A stretch of DNA of 64,000 nt, taken from Natronospirales bacterium (GTDB lineage: Bacteria > Pseudomonadota > Gammaproteobacteria > Natronospirales > REEB76). Position 1 is the first letter of the stretch, and each line of letters opens with the position of its first letter. The stretch covers positions 1 to 64,000 of the forward strand of contig JAJYUH010000009.1 in assembly GCA_021792635.1 (NCBI GenBank), in the 5' to 3' direction. This document shows, piece after piece, positions 1,711-34,239 of this stretch. The notes beneath the pieces were generated by a model. That model had not been told where the DNA came from. It ran no database searches and saw only the letters and a program-made list of their open reading frames with translations. Position numbers and translations under genes: made by a program.

Positions 1711-4700
1711 GTGAAACGCTGGCAGCACATCGTCTGGAAATGGTCCGCCGGTACCGTGGCGGCACTGGTGATTCTGTCTGCCACGCTGGCGGGCCTGTTT
1801 CGCCTGTTTGCGCCGCTGGTACCCGGCTACCGCGCGGAGGTGCAGACCTGGGCCAGTCGCACCCTGGGCCGGCCGGTGAGGATCACCGCCATGGGTGCCC
1901 AGTGGGGCCTCTACGGTCCGGAAATCACCCTGGAAAAAGTCGCACTCCTTTCCAAGAATCACCGGCGCATTATTCTGACGGCGCGTGAGCTGCGTATCGG
2001 CTTTACCCCGGGTGCGCTGTTGCATGGCCGGTTTTCCCGGCCCAACCGCATCATTCTGATTGAGCCGCAGGTGGTGCTGGAACGGGATACCGACGGCAGT
2101 TTCGAAGTGCGCGGCCTGGAAGGCAGTTTGAGTCCCGGCCAGGCACACACCGACTGGCGCGGGGTGCTGGCCGAGACCTTCGCGCAGAGCGCGCAGATCA
2201 TCATCAGCGGCGGTGCAGTCACGCTGTTCGATAGGCGTGCGCCGGCCGCACCGCTGGTTTTCAGCAACCTGAGTCTCAAGATAGATAACAGCGCCGGCAG
2301 CCATGAGATGTACGGACATGTGCATTTGCCGGCCGCCTTGGGCCGCAATCTGACTTTCACCGGCCGCATCCAGGGTGCGGGCATCAAACCACAAACCTGG
2401 CGCTGGCGCGGCGATGTGCAGGGCACGGCACTCAATATGCCGCGCCTGCTGTCTTATTGGCCCCGCTACAGCGGACGTTTTGCCAGCGGCCTTGTGGATT
2501 TGCGCGCCGCCGCATCCGGTGAGGGTGGCAGCCTGGATGAGGTGCGGGCCAGCATCAACGCTCATAATGTGTTTCCCACCGGTAACGGCGCTGTCAGGGC
2601 CGGATTTAGCACCCTGGCAGGCACCCTGAGCTGGATTCACAGCAGCGGCGGCTGGACGCTGAGCGGCCGCAATATGCAACTGCAAAGCGGTAATGACATC
2701 TGGCCGGCGAGTGACTTCGATCTTCGGTACGCGTACGCACAGAATGGTGCCGCCACCTGGTCAGGCGGGGCCACCTTCCTGCGCTTGCAGGACATCGTTA
2801 TTTTGACAGGCTGGTTACCGGAAAATTTTTCTTCCCCCGTCAGCACGCGGCTGTTGCGGCTGTCACCCACGGGGGACGTGACGGATGTCAATTTTCAGGC
2901 TCAATGGAGCGGCAAGGCCCTCGGGAACTGGTCCTTGCATGGCCGTTTCACCGGTCTCGGCCTGCGGGCGAACGGGAACATTCCCGGTTTCACGGGACTG
3001 GATGGCGGGCTTGACGCCGATCAGGACGGCGGCACGCTCAGGCTTGTCGCCAAAGATGCCTCGGCCACCTTCCCGCATCTTTTCCGCGCGCCGTTGCAAG
3101 CGGTCGCGCTTAGTACCGACGTGCAATTCCATCATGATGCCCGGGGTTGGCATATCGCGACGGGCGATCTTGCCATGGCGAATCCCGATGCGCAGGTGCA
3201 GGCAAAAGGGACATTGCTGTTACCCGCCGACGGTGGTTCGCCGCTGATTGATCTGCAGGCGACGGTGCAGAATGCCAGGGTAAAAAACAAATCCGCCTAT
3301 TTGCCCGCGAGAGTCATACCGAAGGCAGTGGTGAACTGGCTCGATACCTCCATCGTGAGCGGCCGGGTACCGGCCGGCAGTCTGATACTGCGGGGCAGGC
3401 TGGCTGATTTTCCCTTTGATAAGGGGCAGGGCCTGTTCGACATCCGTTTCCATATCACGCACGGCGTGCTGGATTACGCCAAAAACTGGCCGCGTGTGGA
3501 GCACTTGGATGCGGACGTGGAGTTCAAGAACCAGGGTATGAGCGTCGCGGTGCAGCATGGCAGCATGCTGGACGACGATATCAGCGGTACCACGGCGGAT
3601 TTTGCCGACCTGAGTAACGGGGTTTTGGATATCCGCGGCAGGGCGCGGGGCAGCGCCCGGACGACACTCGATTTTTTGCGCAGCGGGCCCCTGAAAAAGC
3701 GTTTTGGCCATTACCTCGACGGTCTCAGGGTAAGCGGCCGCAACGATATCAGTTTACATCTGCTTCTGCCGGTTACTGATCCTGCACGGTTCAAACTGAA
3801 CGGTCGTGACCAACTTGGCGACGTGAGCGTGGACCTGGCCAGGCGGCCGGAGTGGCGGCTGAGCCGATTGCGCGGCAGTGTGGCGTTCAGCGACGCGGGT
3901 ATCCGCACGGACAATTTGCGCGGCATGCTGTTGGGCGGAGCCGTGACGATCAGCCTGCATCCGCAAAAGCACGGCAAAGGAACCACTGTGGTGAGCGCCC
4001 GGGGCGGCGCCACTGCGGCAGCCCTGTCTGTGGCTTTGCCGGCACCGTTCAATAAAGTGCTGGCAGGAAATACAGTTTGGCAGCTGTCCGGCAGCCTGCC
4101 CAACGACCCCGCCGGAACCAACGGCGGCCTGTCACTGGAACTCCGTTCCAATCTGCGGGGATTGGGAGTGGATTTACCGGCGCCCTTCGGCAAATCGGCG
4201 GACGCCATCGCACCCCTGGATGCATCGCTGCGTTTGACGGGCGATGCGGGACTGCTGTTGCAGGTACGCTATGCGCATACCATGAACGGCGAGTACCGCT
4301 TCCTGGACGAAAACGGCAGTTGGCAATTTGATCGCGGCGCGCTGGTGTTCGGCACAGCCGAGCCCTCTCTGCCCGCTACGCAGGGGCTTGTGGTGAGCGG
4401 TGCGCTGGCGGAATTCTCGCTGGATGCGTGGAAGCCGTATGCCACCACATCCGGTTCGGAACTTTTACCGCCGTTCCTGCACAGCCTGGATGTCGGTGTG
4501 GGCCGGTTCTCCGGTTTCGGTCAGGATATCGTCAATCTGCACGTACAACTGGCGCGTGCCAGTCATGCCTGGCATGCGACGCTCGCAAGTATGCCCATCG
4601 CCGGCCGTGTCACCTGGCCTTACCTCGTGGACCCGGCTCATCCGATTGTTGCGGATATGCAGCGCGTGACATTCATGCACAGCCCGAACGGCAAGAAAAA

Positions 4701-28913: not shown

Positions 28914-29168
28914 CGATAATTTACGGATGGCGCGCAGGCTGATTCGTGCTATGAGCCGGCTCGGGCGCGGTTACCTCTTCGAGGTGCTGCGGGCGAAGAT
29001 GCTCTTTACTCAGGGGTTCCATGTCACCAGACGTCCCGCGTTCGCGTGCGAAAACAGGGACATGTTTTATCGGATGACGGTGGCTGAGCCGGAACCGCTC
29101 AATTACGGCTCTGATCTAGACGAGCCCATCCGGTGGCTGGCCAAACTATCGCTGTCCCAGCCGGGGAC

Positions 29169-29201
29169 TTGACATCGTCTGGGGGGGGGGGGGTATGTAA
29201 T
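29169..29201 (+). promoter_or_regulatory. Candidate promoter with a 13-G spacer tract
   Basis: A perfect TTGACA (29169-29174) is followed by TCGTCT, thirteen G residues (29181-29193) and TATGTAAT. Two -10 options exist: TATGTA with a 19-base spacer or TGTAAT (5 of 6 bases) with a 21-base spacer. Loss of two or four G residues would bring one or the other to the optimal 17 bases. The S53 peptidase start is 145 bases downstream. Confidence 0.6.
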
Positions 29202-29290
29202 TGTCACATCGGCATGGCGGCGTGATACGCGCTGGCTCGCGAGAACAAAACGTTGCCACGCCCACGCGCCACACTACGGCAGACAAGGGA

Positions 29291-29326
29291 GGTGTGTCCA
29301 GGCTTTTGTGCTTCTGGACCAACACC
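29291..29326 (+). other. Leader hairpin before the second S53 peptidase
   Basis: GGTGT plus GTCCAG (29291-29301) pairs with CTGGAC (29314-29319) and ACACC (29322-29326), leaving a two-base bulge and a 12-base loop. It ends just before the ribosome site (GAGAGGACA), so it could affect translation initiation or mRNA stability. Confidence 0.45.
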
Positions 29327-29346
29327 ATCCCGAGAGGACAGCCATT

Positions 29347-31278
29347 ATGCGTACTGCCGCATTAAAACTCGCGACATTTCCTATGGTTTTGTACCTGCTT
29401 TCGGGCGCAGTCTATGCGCAAAGTAACCCGAGCGGGTTTACCGCCCTGAGCCCGGCAACCACCCTGAACATTGGCGATACGATTACGGGTCCACTGCCTA
29501 CTTCTCAGCCAATGCACATTGTGGTTGCGCTCAAACTCGACAACCTAACCCAACTCCAAACATTTCTGGCCGATCCGCGCCACGCAGAACTTACCCCGGC
29601 TCAGTTCACAGCGCTGTACTCACCGACGGCCGCCCAGGCCCAAGCTGTCGCTGACTATCTTACGCAGAGCGGCTACCAGAACGTGACCATATCCTCAAAC
29701 CGCTTGCTGGTGTCGGGTGACGGTACCGCGGGCATTACCGAGACAGCGTTTCAGACAGCCTTGGTTAGTGTCCATACACACGATGGCCGGTCTGCCTATG
29801 CGAATTCCACCGCCATTGTTATCCCGACGTCACTGCAGCCTATCGTTGTTGCAGTTCTCGGCCTTCAGAACGTACATATCTACCATTCGTTCATTCGGTC
29901 AACGCAATCGAGCAGCCAGACACTACCCGCCGTGAGTGGAGGTGGATCTGAAGTGCTGCACGATCCAACCGATTTTCCATTGATCTACGATGCCAGCAGC
30001 TTAGCAACGGCATCCAGCATCCCGGTGGGTATCGTCGCCGTATGCAAGTTGAACAAGACTCTCAGTGATCTGACGGATTTTACTAACCGCGAAAAATTAC
30101 CGTCGGTGACCACGCGGGTTATCGACGGTAACGACTGTACCCAAACTGGTCAGATTGAATGGGACCTGGACAGCCAGGATATCGTCGCCATGGCGGGCGC
30201 CGTTTCAAGTTTAACCTTCTTTGACGCAGCTTCATATGACGATTCGGATATCACGACTGCGTATAACAGCGCCGTGACCGATGATGTGGCCAGGATCATC
30301 AATGTCTCGCTCGGCGAGTGTGAAAATACGGCCCAAAGCGATGGCGCCGCGGCCGCCGATGACCAGATTTTCATGGAGGCGCTGGCCGATGACCAGACTT
30401 TTTCAGCCGCGGCGGGCGACAATGGGGCGGATGAGTGCCCTGGCGTCCTTTCCGACTCCTACCCGGCCAGCTCCCCCTACGTGGTTTCGGTGGGCGGCAC
30501 CGAACTGTACACTGTCGGGACTACCACCTGGGCGAATGAGACGGTGTGGAACGATAACAAGGGCGCCACCGGTGGCGCTCCCAGCACCTTCGAGCCGCAG
30601 CCCAGTTGGCAGAACGGCGTGGGTCAGAACGCCGGCCATACCACCCGGGGTGTCGCAGACGTGGCATTTGATGCCTCCCCTTATTCCGGTGCCTACCATT
30701 TATGGATCAGTGGTGCAGAGGACTTTACCACTGGATACGGCGGTACCAGCTTGGCGTCACCGCTTTTCGTTGGCATGTGGGCCCGCATCCGGCAGGCGGG
30801 AGGCAGCGCTTCCGGGACGCTGCTCACGGAGCCGACTGGGTTCGGTGCGGAGTATTTGGGCTGTACAAATAACATGGACAGGTATCGGCTGAGCTGGGGA
30901 AACGCGATCTACGGCTTCGCGGCACCCATGCTCTACCAAGTGGCCCAAGCCAACTACGCCGCCACATTTCATGACGTAACATCGGGAAATAATGATGGCG
31001 AGAATGCCGCACCCGGTTGGGATTATCCCACTGGCTTCGGCAGCCTGATTGGAAACCAGATCGTCGCCACCATCGCAACCCCCGCCCTATACGTAGCCCA
31101 ACAACAGACAGGTGGCGGCGGCTGGGTACAGTTCTACAGCGGGGGCGGGCATGTTACCGGCGCCCGCGTCACGGGCGGCTATGCATGGGAATTCCGGGTG
31201 CAGGCCCAAAACGGTAACTTGACCAGCCCTTGGGCTTATGTTTACGTGAGCGCACCAAAGTGCAGTGGTTTAAATTGA
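29347..31278 (+). CDS. Secreted S53 family peptidase, second copy
   Basis: A 643-residue sedolisin-type serine-carboxyl peptidase with a signal peptide (ATFPMVLYLLSGAVYA) and a pro-domain at about 30-180. The catalytic set is intact: Glu271 and Asp275 in IEWDLDSQD, the oxyanion Asp358 in AAAGDNGADE and Ser468 in GGTSLASPLF. The C-terminal calcium region is readable (FHDVTSGNND, then GWDYPTGFG). It is clearly diverged from the copy at 9252 and by eye is less GC-rich than its surroundings. ATG 29347 was chosen over 29308 because it directly starts the signal peptide after a GAGAGGACA ribosome site. Expression is predicted to depend on the poly-G promoter. The SBBP gene follows after 37 bases. 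Confidence 0.92.
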   Translation: MRTAALKLATFPMVLYLLSGAVYAQSNPSGFTALSPATTLNIGDTITGPLPTSQPMHIVVALKLDNLTQLQTFLADPRHAELTPAQFTALYSPTAAQAQAVADYLTQSGYQNVTISSNRLLVSGDGTAGITETAFQTALVSVHTHDGRSAYANSTAIVIPTSLQPIVVAVLGLQNVHIYHSFIRSTQSSSQTLPAVSGGGSEVLHDPTDFPLIYDASSLATASSIPVGIVAVCKLNKTLSDLTDFTNREKLPSVTTRVIDGNDCTQTGQIEWDLDSQDIVAMAGAVSSLTFFDAASYDDSDITTAYNSAVTDDVARIINVSLGECENTAQSDGAAAADDQIFMEALADDQTFSAAAGDNGADECPGVLSDSYPASSPYVVSVGGTELYTVGTTTWANETVWNDNKGATGGAPSTFEPQPSWQNGVGQNAGHTTRGVADVAFDASPYSGAYHLWISGAEDFTTGYGGTSLASPLFVGMWARIRQAGGSASGTLLTEPTGFGAEYLGCTNNMDRYRLSWGNAIYGFAAPMLYQVAQANYAATFHDVTSGNNDGENAAPGWDYPTGFGSLIGNQIVATIATPALYVAQQQTGGGGWVQFYSGGGHVTGARVTGGYAWEFRVQAQNGNLTSPWAYVYVSAPKCSGLN

Positions 31279-31315
31279 AACCTGTGCAAGGATTAGGATT
31301 ACCTATAGGCTGAAC

Positions 31316-33766
31316 ATGGCTTTTTTGCGCCGCCGCAGACCTCCATTCGGGATTACCGTGGCGCCGGCTGTCCGCATCGCCGTCTTGGTCCTGACGGCGA
31401 TGCTGGTCGCGGCGGCCCCGGTCAGGGGCTCCCGTACGCGTGTGGCTATTCCCCCATCCACGGCCCCTGGGTTTCTGGCGCATAATCCTTTCGCAGTCCG
31501 ACTCGGCAAACTGCCTATTCCCTTCGAACCCAACGTGGGCCAGGCCGCACCGCGCATCCGGTACCTGGCCAGGGCCAATGGCTTTGGGGTCGCGCTGACC
31601 GAACGGGGCATGATTCTGAGAGTGAACAGGCCCATAGCGCCTCGGCCGGTAGAATTCCTGCGAGACCCCGTATCCCGGCTTGTTGCACACCCCGCGTTTG
31701 TTTATTTGTACCCGGTCGGTGCCGGTACCCACCCAAAGATGCAGACTGAGCACCGGCTGGCGAGCATCAGCAACTACTTTATCGGCAACCATCCGAAAGC
31801 GTGGCATACCAACGTGCCCAATTATGCCGCCGTTCGCTACCTGAACCTCTACCCCGGCGTGGACTGGGTCGTCTACGGCAACCCGAACCGGTTGGAATAC
31901 GACTTGGTGGTGGCGCCGCAGGCGAATCCGCAGCGGATCAAGTTCCGTATCCAAGGCGCGAACCGCCTGGCGTTGGACCCACACGGCAATCTGGTAATCA
32001 CGGTGGATGGCCGGCGCTTGCGCGAACTCAAGCCAGTGGTTTATCAGATTACCGCCGACGGCCGGCGACGAGTAGTTGACGGCCGCTATGTCCTCGATGG
32101 CCGGCAAGTGGCTTTCGCTTTGGGGCCGTATGATCACGCCCGCCGGCTCATCATTGATCCGGCCGTGGTGTATTCCACCTACCTCGGCGGCAGCTACAGC
32201 GATGGGGCCGCGGCCGTGGCGGTGGACAGCGCCGGCAATGCCTACGTTACGGGGCAAGTCGGTTCAAACGATTTCCCCACGACCAATCTCCTGCAGCCGC
32301 CGAGTCCGTCGCCGACGAACCATGGGGGTGATGTCTTTATCAGCAAATTCAGTGCGGGTGGCCGCGCTCTGGTGTATTCCACTTATCTGGGCGGCAGTAA
32401 CCCGGATGAACCCCGCAGTATCGCAGTGGACAGTGCGGGCAATGCCTATGTGACCGGTAACACATTTTCAACCGATTTCCCCACCGTCAATGCGTTCCAG
32501 TCGACAAACCGGTCAACGAGCACCATGACTCCTGAGCAGGCGTTCGTCACCAAGCTCAATGCCCAGGGCAATGCGCTGGTGTATTCCACCTACCTCGGCG
32601 GCAGCGGTGAGGACGCTGGCTTCGGTATCGCGGTGGACAGTGCGGGCGAAGCCTATGTCGTGGGTGATACGAACTCGGTAGATTTCCCCACGGTCAACCC
32701 GTACCAGGGATCTCTCCAGGGCATCCATGACGCCTTTGTCGCCAAGTTCGATGCCGCCGGCAACGCACTGGTGTATTCCACCTACCTGGGCGGCAGTGGC
32801 TTTCAACAGGGCTATGCCATCGCCATTGATGGCACCGGGAGTGCGTACGTTACCGGGATAACCGACTCAACCAATTTTCCTGTGGTGAATGCCTACCAAA
32901 CCACCAACCCGTCCGCAGCCGGTAGCGGCACTAACCCCGGCTTTGTCAGCAAATTCAGCCCGGCCGGCAATGTATTGGATTACTCCACGTACCTGGGTGG
33001 TAGCGCCGATTCGTTTCCCTATGCCATTGCAGTGGACAGCAGCGGCGAGGCCTATGTCACCGGAGCGACTGACTCGACGGATTTCCCGACCGTCAATCCC
33101 TATCAGAGCCAGCTCAAGGGCTTCGACAATGTATTCGTCACGAAGTTGAATGCTCAAGGGAACGCGCTGGTCTATTCCACTTATCTGGGCGGAAGTACGG
33201 GCGAACAGGGGAATGGTATCGCCTTGGACAGCGCCGGTGATGCTTACATCGTTGGGAGCACGTTCTCAACCGATTTCCCCACTGTGAACCCCCTGCAGGC
33301 GCAGAACAACGGAGCAGACCTCGGGACATCCAACGCCTTCATCTCCGAGTTAAGCCCCAGCGGCAATGGGCTGCTTTTTTCCACCTACTGGGGTGGGAGT
33401 GGTTCCTGGGGACCCTACTCAAACCACACCACCATTCCGGGTGGCGATTCAGCCGCCGGCGTCGCCTTGGATAACGCTGGTAACGTGTATGTCGTCGGTT
33501 CGACGTCGTCGTGTAATTTCCCCACGTATCGGCCCTTCCAAGCGACCAACAGAACCACCACGATCTACGGCACCGGTGAAAATGCCTTTGTCACGAAGTT
33601 CTCGATTGCGCAAACGGCCCCATACACGCCGCCCGTATGTCCCAGCGTGGGCGGCGGGAGCACGGGTGGCAGCGGCAGCGGAGGTGGCACAACGGACGGG
33701 CTGTCCCTTGTAGCACTGGGACTTCTGGTGCTACTGCGGTTGCGCTCATCCCGAAGCAGGCTCTGA
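31316..33766 (+). CDS. Exported SBBP-repeat beta-propeller protein with GlyGly-CTERM-like tail
   Basis: An 816-residue exported protein. After a signal peptide (VAPAVRIAVLVLTAMLVAAA) comes a domain with PFEPNVGQAAPRIRYLARAN of the type usually found before SBBP propellers. Seven repeats of the form YSTYLGGSxxD...AVDSAGNAYVTG follow, from about residue 283 to 735. The end is a Ser/Gly-rich linker (GGGSTGGSGSGGG), a hydrophobic helix (LSLVALGLLVLL) and a basic tail (RLRSSRSRL), like the GlyGly-CTERM signal that rhombosortase processes during type II export. It is probably surface-attached after sorting. It may share a transcript with the S53 peptidase 37 bases upstream. No rhombosortase gene is in the window. 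Confidence 0.88.
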   Translation: MAFLRRRRPPFGITVAPAVRIAVLVLTAMLVAAAPVRGSRTRVAIPPSTAPGFLAHNPFAVRLGKLPIPFEPNVGQAAPRIRYLARANGFGVALTERGMILRVNRPIAPRPVEFLRDPVSRLVAHPAFVYLYPVGAGTHPKMQTEHRLASISNYFIGNHPKAWHTNVPNYAAVRYLNLYPGVDWVVYGNPNRLEYDLVVAPQANPQRIKFRIQGANRLALDPHGNLVITVDGRRLRELKPVVYQITADGRRRVVDGRYVLDGRQVAFALGPYDHARRLIIDPAVVYSTYLGGSYSDGAAAVAVDSAGNAYVTGQVGSNDFPTTNLLQPPSPSPTNHGGDVFISKFSAGGRALVYSTYLGGSNPDEPRSIAVDSAGNAYVTGNTFSTDFPTVNAFQSTNRSTSTMTPEQAFVTKLNAQGNALVYSTYLGGSGEDAGFGIAVDSAGEAYVVGDTNSVDFPTVNPYQGSLQGIHDAFVAKFDAAGNALVYSTYLGGSGFQQGYAIAIDGTGSAYVTGITDSTNFPVVNAYQTTNPSAAGSGTNPGFVSKFSPAGNVLDYSTYLGGSADSFPYAIAVDSSGEAYVTGATDSTDFPTVNPYQSQLKGFDNVFVTKLNAQGNALVYSTYLGGSTGEQGNGIALDSAGDAYIVGSTFSTDFPTVNPLQAQNNGADLGTSNAFISELSPSGNGLLFSTYWGGSGSWGPYSNHTTIPGGDSAAGVALDNAGNVYVVGSTSSCNFPTYRPFQATNRTTTIYGTGENAFVTKFSIAQTAPYTPPVCPSVGGGSTGGSGSGGGTTDGLSLVALGLLVLLRLRSSRSRL
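32164..33526 (+). repeat. Tandem SBBP-coding repeats
   Basis: Seven imperfect units of roughly 170-210 bases share DNA blocks such as GTGTATTCCAC and TACCTGGGCGGCAG, encoding the YSTYLGGS turn. The nucleotide similarity between units is high enough to permit recombination between blades. Confidence 0.75.
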
Positions 33767-34239
33767 TTCGCGAACGCAGCTCAGCGATGCCACGCTAAAT
33801 CCGCCCAAGGGTTCAACAGTGTGAATACGTAATCTTACCCGTCGTGGCCATCAATCACGGAATCCGAATCTATACTCCCCGGTACCAAGTGCCAACGGAA
33901 CCAAATCAATCATAGAATCCGAATACCCAGAAAAAGAAAGCCGGTGCAGCGCAGCCCGGGAGGCGCGAGGCACCGGCAGGATCCAGGGTGCGGGGAAAGC
34001 GCCCGGCAGACCCCGGTGGGGAGACCGGAGCTCGGTTTGCGCAGGCAGACCTGCGCACCAGGGCCGCTTGATCGGTTCCAGACCAGAATGCTCCGGCCGT
34101 TTGCGCGTGTTCACCGCCGCGCGGGAAGGCCCCGCTGCCCGGGCCGGGCTTGCCGCTAACTGTTTCCCCCGGTGTCCGGGGGACAGGCATCGCCGGATGC
34201 AGTGTCGCCAGAGCGTGGCTCGCTCCATCGGGATACGAT
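33767..34239. other. Intergenic region with an imperfect repeat and a possible 3' UTR RNA
   Basis: It lies between the convergent SBBP and envZ genes. The part 33978-34239 is GC-rich and well able to fold, with no convincing protein, and lies downstream of envZ. The direct repeat ATCAATCACGGAATCCGAAT (33850-33869) recurs with two changes at 33905-33924. A terminator at 33930-33977 ends minus-strand transcripts. Comparison by eye with RNase P RNA, tmRNA, SRP RNA and 6S RNA found no match. Confidence 0.45.
33930..33977 (-). terminator. Intrinsic terminator, minus strand
   Basis: On the minus strand, GCCGGTGC (33977-33970) pairs perfectly with GCACCGGC (33947-33940), followed by TTTCTTTTTC. It is about 260 bases after the envZ stop, so it would define either a long envZ 3' UTR or a separate small RNA. 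Confidence 0.8.

Follow-up and report, generated by a model that had tools for sequence, protein, structure and literature searches.

The window analyzed here, a stretch of 64,000 nucleotides from a Natronospirales draft genome, differs from the syntenic locus of the congener G008 by a segment encoding a secreted S53 peptidase and an SBBP beta-propeller protein (Table 1). In blastn comparisons, homology to G008 stops at position 28938 and resumes at 33930, and G008 has about 220 bp where the window has about 4990 bp. The flanking genes are kept in G008 without peptidase and propeller at the same place, and G008 has a longer version of a small minus-strand gene that the insert cuts short. The insert also contains the relic of an ISL3-family transposase. 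An ISL3 end of the ATACCC type found in relatives was found neither near this relic nor, as a right end, at the G tract described below, and the tract was rejected as such an end. Near-direct repeats of the form ATCAATCA(C/T)(G/A)GAATCCGAAT lie at the right edge of the insert (window 33850-33932), and since C73 of congener G007 also contains a 33-bp match and the C14 relic has a similar motif nearby, they suggest a dispersed repeat. The exact downstream sequence was found in no viral contig.

Table 1. Features of the insert and its candidate promoter, by position in the window.
Feature	Position	Strand	Evidence and remarks
Insert of ~4990 bp relative to congener G008	28939..33929		blastn of the syntenic G008 locus
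ISL3-family transposase, C-terminal relic	28951..29172	+	47-51% identity to class members; plasmid relatives annotated ISL3 family transposase
-35 element TTGACA	29169-29174	+	Sequence
G13 tract in spacer	29181-29193	+	Sequence, homopolymer count
Candidate -10 TATGTA	29194-29199	+	Spacer 19; weak TATAAT match; placed directly after the tract, like sibling promoters
Alternative -10 TGTAAT	29196-29201	+	Spacer 21; weak TATAAT match
Secreted S53 (sedolisin) peptidase, 643 aa, signal peptide	29347..31278	+	GAGAGGACA before ATG; domain and structure-homologue matches
SBBP beta-propeller protein	31316..33766	+	DUF7948; GlyGly-CTERM-like tail (tail by inspection)

The S53 start codon is preceded by the Shine-Dalgarno-like GAGAGGACAGCC, and a signal peptide, called by inspection, begins at this ATG, marking the product as an exported or surface protein. 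The product contains a pro-kumamolisin domain (PF09286, E 6.7e-20), aligns with sedolisin 1nlu (E 3.5e-66), the Ca-loop region included, and has the catalytic Glu, Asp, and Ser motifs (EWDLD at 271, GTSLASP at 466). It resembles sedolisin and kumamolisin (S53; 1nlu, 1t1g) in prodomain, catalytic motifs, and Ca-loop region, but differs from them in an extra C-terminal region and in an insertion of about 35 residues (487-521; window 30800-30915) that, placed between the catalytic Ser and the Ca loop, splits the alignment. Since part of this insertion (GAEYLGCTNNMDRYRLSW) resembles, by eye, the C-terminal domain of the relative in congener G003, the gene may be internally rearranged; the insertion is possibly such a rearrangement or a misassembly, and the gene with this odd insertion may be impaired. 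At another place the source genome also carries a 78-bp piece that shares 94% identity with the S53 gene (the GENAAPGWDYPTGFGS region) and is joined to an RHS-like frame (L062 ~4468-4546, G000:C14:104968-105045). The propeller gene starts 38 bp past the S53 stop. This gene content agrees with the original prediction, which placed a secreted S53 peptidase and then a propeller downstream of a switch and knew of no S53 peptidase under such control; a literature search linking sedolisins with phase-variable promoters gave one unrelated match and no paper tying the two together.

The nearest named relatives found for the peptidase are those of Dyella and Rhodanobacter. Congener G003 has a related S53-SBBP pair at a different locus, beside a duplicated PagP-like gene, with 55% protein identity for S53 and 66% DNA identity for SBBP over the matched stretches. 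This pair is flanked by the PagP-like gene and its truncated copy, as if independently inserted, and its S53 gene (L061 7126-9083, G003:C38) is seemingly frameshifted near the N-terminus. A G tract is absent upstream of the S53 relatives in G003, Dyella, and Rhodanobacter, and homology of the S53 upstream region to that of G003 was rejected because the alignment was no better than shuffles. None of the congeners, each represented by one genome per species, carries the promoter site. With no conserved orthologue of the promoter, conservation cannot back it.

The site itself reads TTGACATCGTCTGGGGGGGGGGGGGTATGTAAT (29169-29201). Six bases, TCGTCT, separate TTGACA from the G13 tract, TATGTAAT follows the tract directly (29194-29201), and the stretch from TTGACA to TATGTAAT lies 153 bp upstream of the S53 start codon. 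The layout originally described here, TTGACA and G13 with spacers of 19 to TATGTA or 21 to TGTAAT, is confirmed by the sequence, and so is the statement that no other homopolymer in the window exceeds eight, the next longest being a single G8. The genome (2,710,172 bases in 30 contigs) contains 29 G/C runs of at least 8 (21 of 8, 4 of 9, 2 of 10, 1 of 11, and 1 of 13). G13 is the longest G run in these 2.71 Mb, and a geometric tail extrapolated from the other 28 runs gives an expectation of 0.05 for runs of at least 13. The other runs of 10-11 lie within a 5-formyltetrahydrofolate-cyclo-ligase-like gene, at an IS end, and in the intergenic region before a ribosomal-protein-S6-like gene, these genes being named by inspecting translations. 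The TTGACA-Gn-TA layout is absent from all of these runs, and a genome-wide search found no further promoter of this layout in the source genome. The IS end (G10 at L064 3259-3268, G000:C19:56758-56767) has two TGGACATCTTCGGGGG repeats and lies beside a transposase that is IS1595-like by inspection. A reading of the G13 tract as an IS terminal repeat was rejected since TGGACATCTTCGGGGG resembles TTGACATCGTCTGGGG only at 3 mismatches, a level reached by most of the 37 listed genome sites. From TTGACA and TA frequencies in the window, the chance of TTGACA 3-11 nt before a given G run is about 0.0015, falling to about 7e-5 per run when TA is also required 0-1 nt after it, both values being after-the-fact estimates for a site already chosen.

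TATGTA matches TATAAT at 3 of 6 positions and keeps only TAT, while TGTAAT matches at 5 of 6 without the A at position 2. The prediction that G11 or G9 would restore a spacer of 17 nt holds by arithmetic, to TATGTA and TGTAAT, respectively, both of them imperfect -10s. A consensus promoter scan found no promoter at the G13 site. The tract between TTGACA and TATGTA is longer than the cut-off of at least 9 for G/C tracts (PMC5953494). TTGACA overlaps the stop codon (29170-29172) of the transposase relic frame and could be fortuitous.

These features bear on a competing explanation that we regard as unlikely but worth serious weight, namely that the tract is a passive, slippage-prone run in intergenic DNA that has decayed, that TTGACA is a hexamer present by chance where the transposase relic ends, and that the S53 gene is silent or transcribed from elsewhere. 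The relic directly upstream, the recent insertion, the weak -10, and the lack of conservation of the site are all consistent with such decay. However, decay would have had to leave a perfect TTGACA at promoter distance and a TA immediately behind the genome's longest G run, at the low chance per run estimated above, and relatives repeat this layout with promoter-like spacing.

This recurrence emerged from a search for the TTGACA-Gn-TA architecture, with TA starting 0-1 base after the run, rather than for homology to the locus. In the genus, the order, and the class, the layout recurs upstream of microcin-like, amidase-like, trypsin-like, and other signal-peptide genes. Within the genus, G007 has TTGACA-AAATCGCGC-G10-TAGGGT with a spacer of 19 (L082 1486-1515, G007:C26), 77 bp upstream of a gene for a 66-aa peptide with a weak microcin V match. 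Within the order, G013 has TTGACA-N9-G8-TAATAC, spacer 17, ahead of a signal-peptide protein. Examples from the class set include G12-CTATCTT and G9-CTAATCT in G055, ahead of a short signal-peptide protein and a trypsin-like secreted protein, respectively; G9 and G11 in G092 and G228, ahead of a pair of related proteins, of which one is weakly amidase-like; and G13, G9, and G8 in G346 and G250, ahead of members of one exported family. In family f121 (L131-L154) that exported protein family, which has no Pfam match, is multicopy, and many of its members lie behind TTGACAAATCTC-Gn-TAGGGT and its variants, with n = 6, 8, 9, 9, 10, 10, 12, 13, 14, and 14; two further tracts of this family abut scaffold gaps. 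Such a family is possibly a large set of switchable genes. The remark in the original prediction that secreted and surface products are the usual cargo of such switches fits these siblings, most of which lie ahead of genes for a microcin-like peptide or for proteins with a signal peptide; behind one weaker match lies a prenyl-synthase-like gene.

An excess of TTGACA plus G8 alone was rejected as not clearly above the reversed control: without a -10 requirement there were about 22 distinct matches versus 14-17 in that control, which is not significant. The signal lies in what follows the run. TA occurs within 0-1 base of it in 10 of about 21 class matches, the window left out, versus 12% expected from the TA rate after G runs of at least 5 in the window (p ~5e-5). 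With TANNNT required, 56 genomes of relatives gave 11 forward matches and 2 control matches (p = 0.011), although not all of the 11 are good examples and one precedes the prenyl-synthase-like gene. Among 18 sibling promoters, window excluded, n ranges from 6 to 14 and the spacer from 15 to 21 (mean 17.6); longer tracts pair with shorter pre-tract stretches, and the spacer variance is below that in 99.7% of permutations (p = 0.003), several of the 18 being paralogues and so not fully independent. The picture is one of real promoters whose spacer would wander near the optimum through the number of G residues, a behavior expected of a slippage switch but not of a fixed operator.

That the site is a real promoter whose G tract serves as a regulator's operator or a structural element, with no contingency switch, appears improbable. 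The f121 promoters do share sequence on either side of the tract (TTGACAAATCTC-Gn-TAGGGT), as an operator might, but the length of a recognition site should stay constant, and the homologous promoters of this one family run from G6 to G14. More improbable still is an assembly or sequencing error that lengthened a shorter, fixed run. Short-read sequencing is prone to errors at long G runs, the assembly is a draft of 30 contigs, and two sibling tracts abut scaffold gaps; against this, the contig extends past the tract in either direction, and tracts of comparable length occur in independent genomes. A translational switch, in which slippage shifts the frame of an S53 N-terminal extension, was rejected as scarcely credible since the tract ends before the start codon (ATG 29347, with its Shine-Dalgarno-like sequence and signal peptide), which can be used whatever the tract length, and since at G13 no in-frame ATG, GTG, or TTG lies upstream of the tract, even though the S53 frame stays open across the tract as far upstream as 29173 and G12 or G15 would link it to upstream GTG/TTG codons.

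The phase-variable promoter that was originally predicted therefore stands in part. Support for the G tract as a promoter spacer comes from the independent TTGACA-Gn-TA promoters with variable n in the genus, order, and class, while the case for a promoter at this particular site is weakened by the poor -10, the negative scan, and the absence of the site in congeners. On balance we lean, by a little, toward the G13 tract being the spacer of a phase-variable promoter.

Homopolymers that set promoter spacing and phase are familiar from the poly-C tract of the Bordetella fim promoters, which differ in having C on the coding strand and in being activator-dependent. Closer in layout are Neisseria meningitidis porA and Treponema pallidum tp0126 (an OmpW homologue), in which poly-G between -35 and -10 acts by spacing with an optimum of 17 (PMC7864442). 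As in porA, where the number of G residues inside the spacer sets the -35/-10 distance and the product is exported, the sibling spacer pattern fits a slippage-controlled promoter. The differences are that variation and expression have been demonstrated for porA while both are predicted for the window site, and that the window has a weak -10 and a sedolisin peptidase gene in a 5-kb insert. The tp0126 case, also shown experimentally, concerns an outer-membrane protein of a host-adapted spirochaete.

By analogy with these two systems, G13 would be the variable spacer of a sigma-70-type promoter driving the S53 gene and perhaps also the downstream propeller gene. By slipped-strand mispairing the tract would gain or lose G residues and thereby toggle the S53 promoter between weak and strong states. 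It would be strongest at G11, with 17 nt between TTGACA and TATGTA, and the assembled G13, with its spacer of 19, would have caught the genome in a weak or off state. Slippage at the S53 promoter, transcription from this site, and length-dependent expression are all steps that we infer.

The recurrent sibling promoters are a more valuable lead than the window site. We offer tentatively, and with less confidence than the reading of the tract itself, the broader proposal that several lineages of the class share a recurrent kind of switch not described before, the poly-G spacer promoter, which would control secreted proteases, microcin-like peptides, wall amidases, and expanded families of exported proteins, and that the window holds a recent instance, formed where an inserted peptidase cassette has its edge. 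Metagenome reads that already exist would allow a test on the sibling set, which has one protein family under promoters of G6 to G14, with no need for culturing. If true, slippage-controlled promoters would be used beyond the host-adapted bacteria that supply their best-documented cases, and extracellular enzymes and antagonistic peptides would be varied in populations known mainly from draft genomes.
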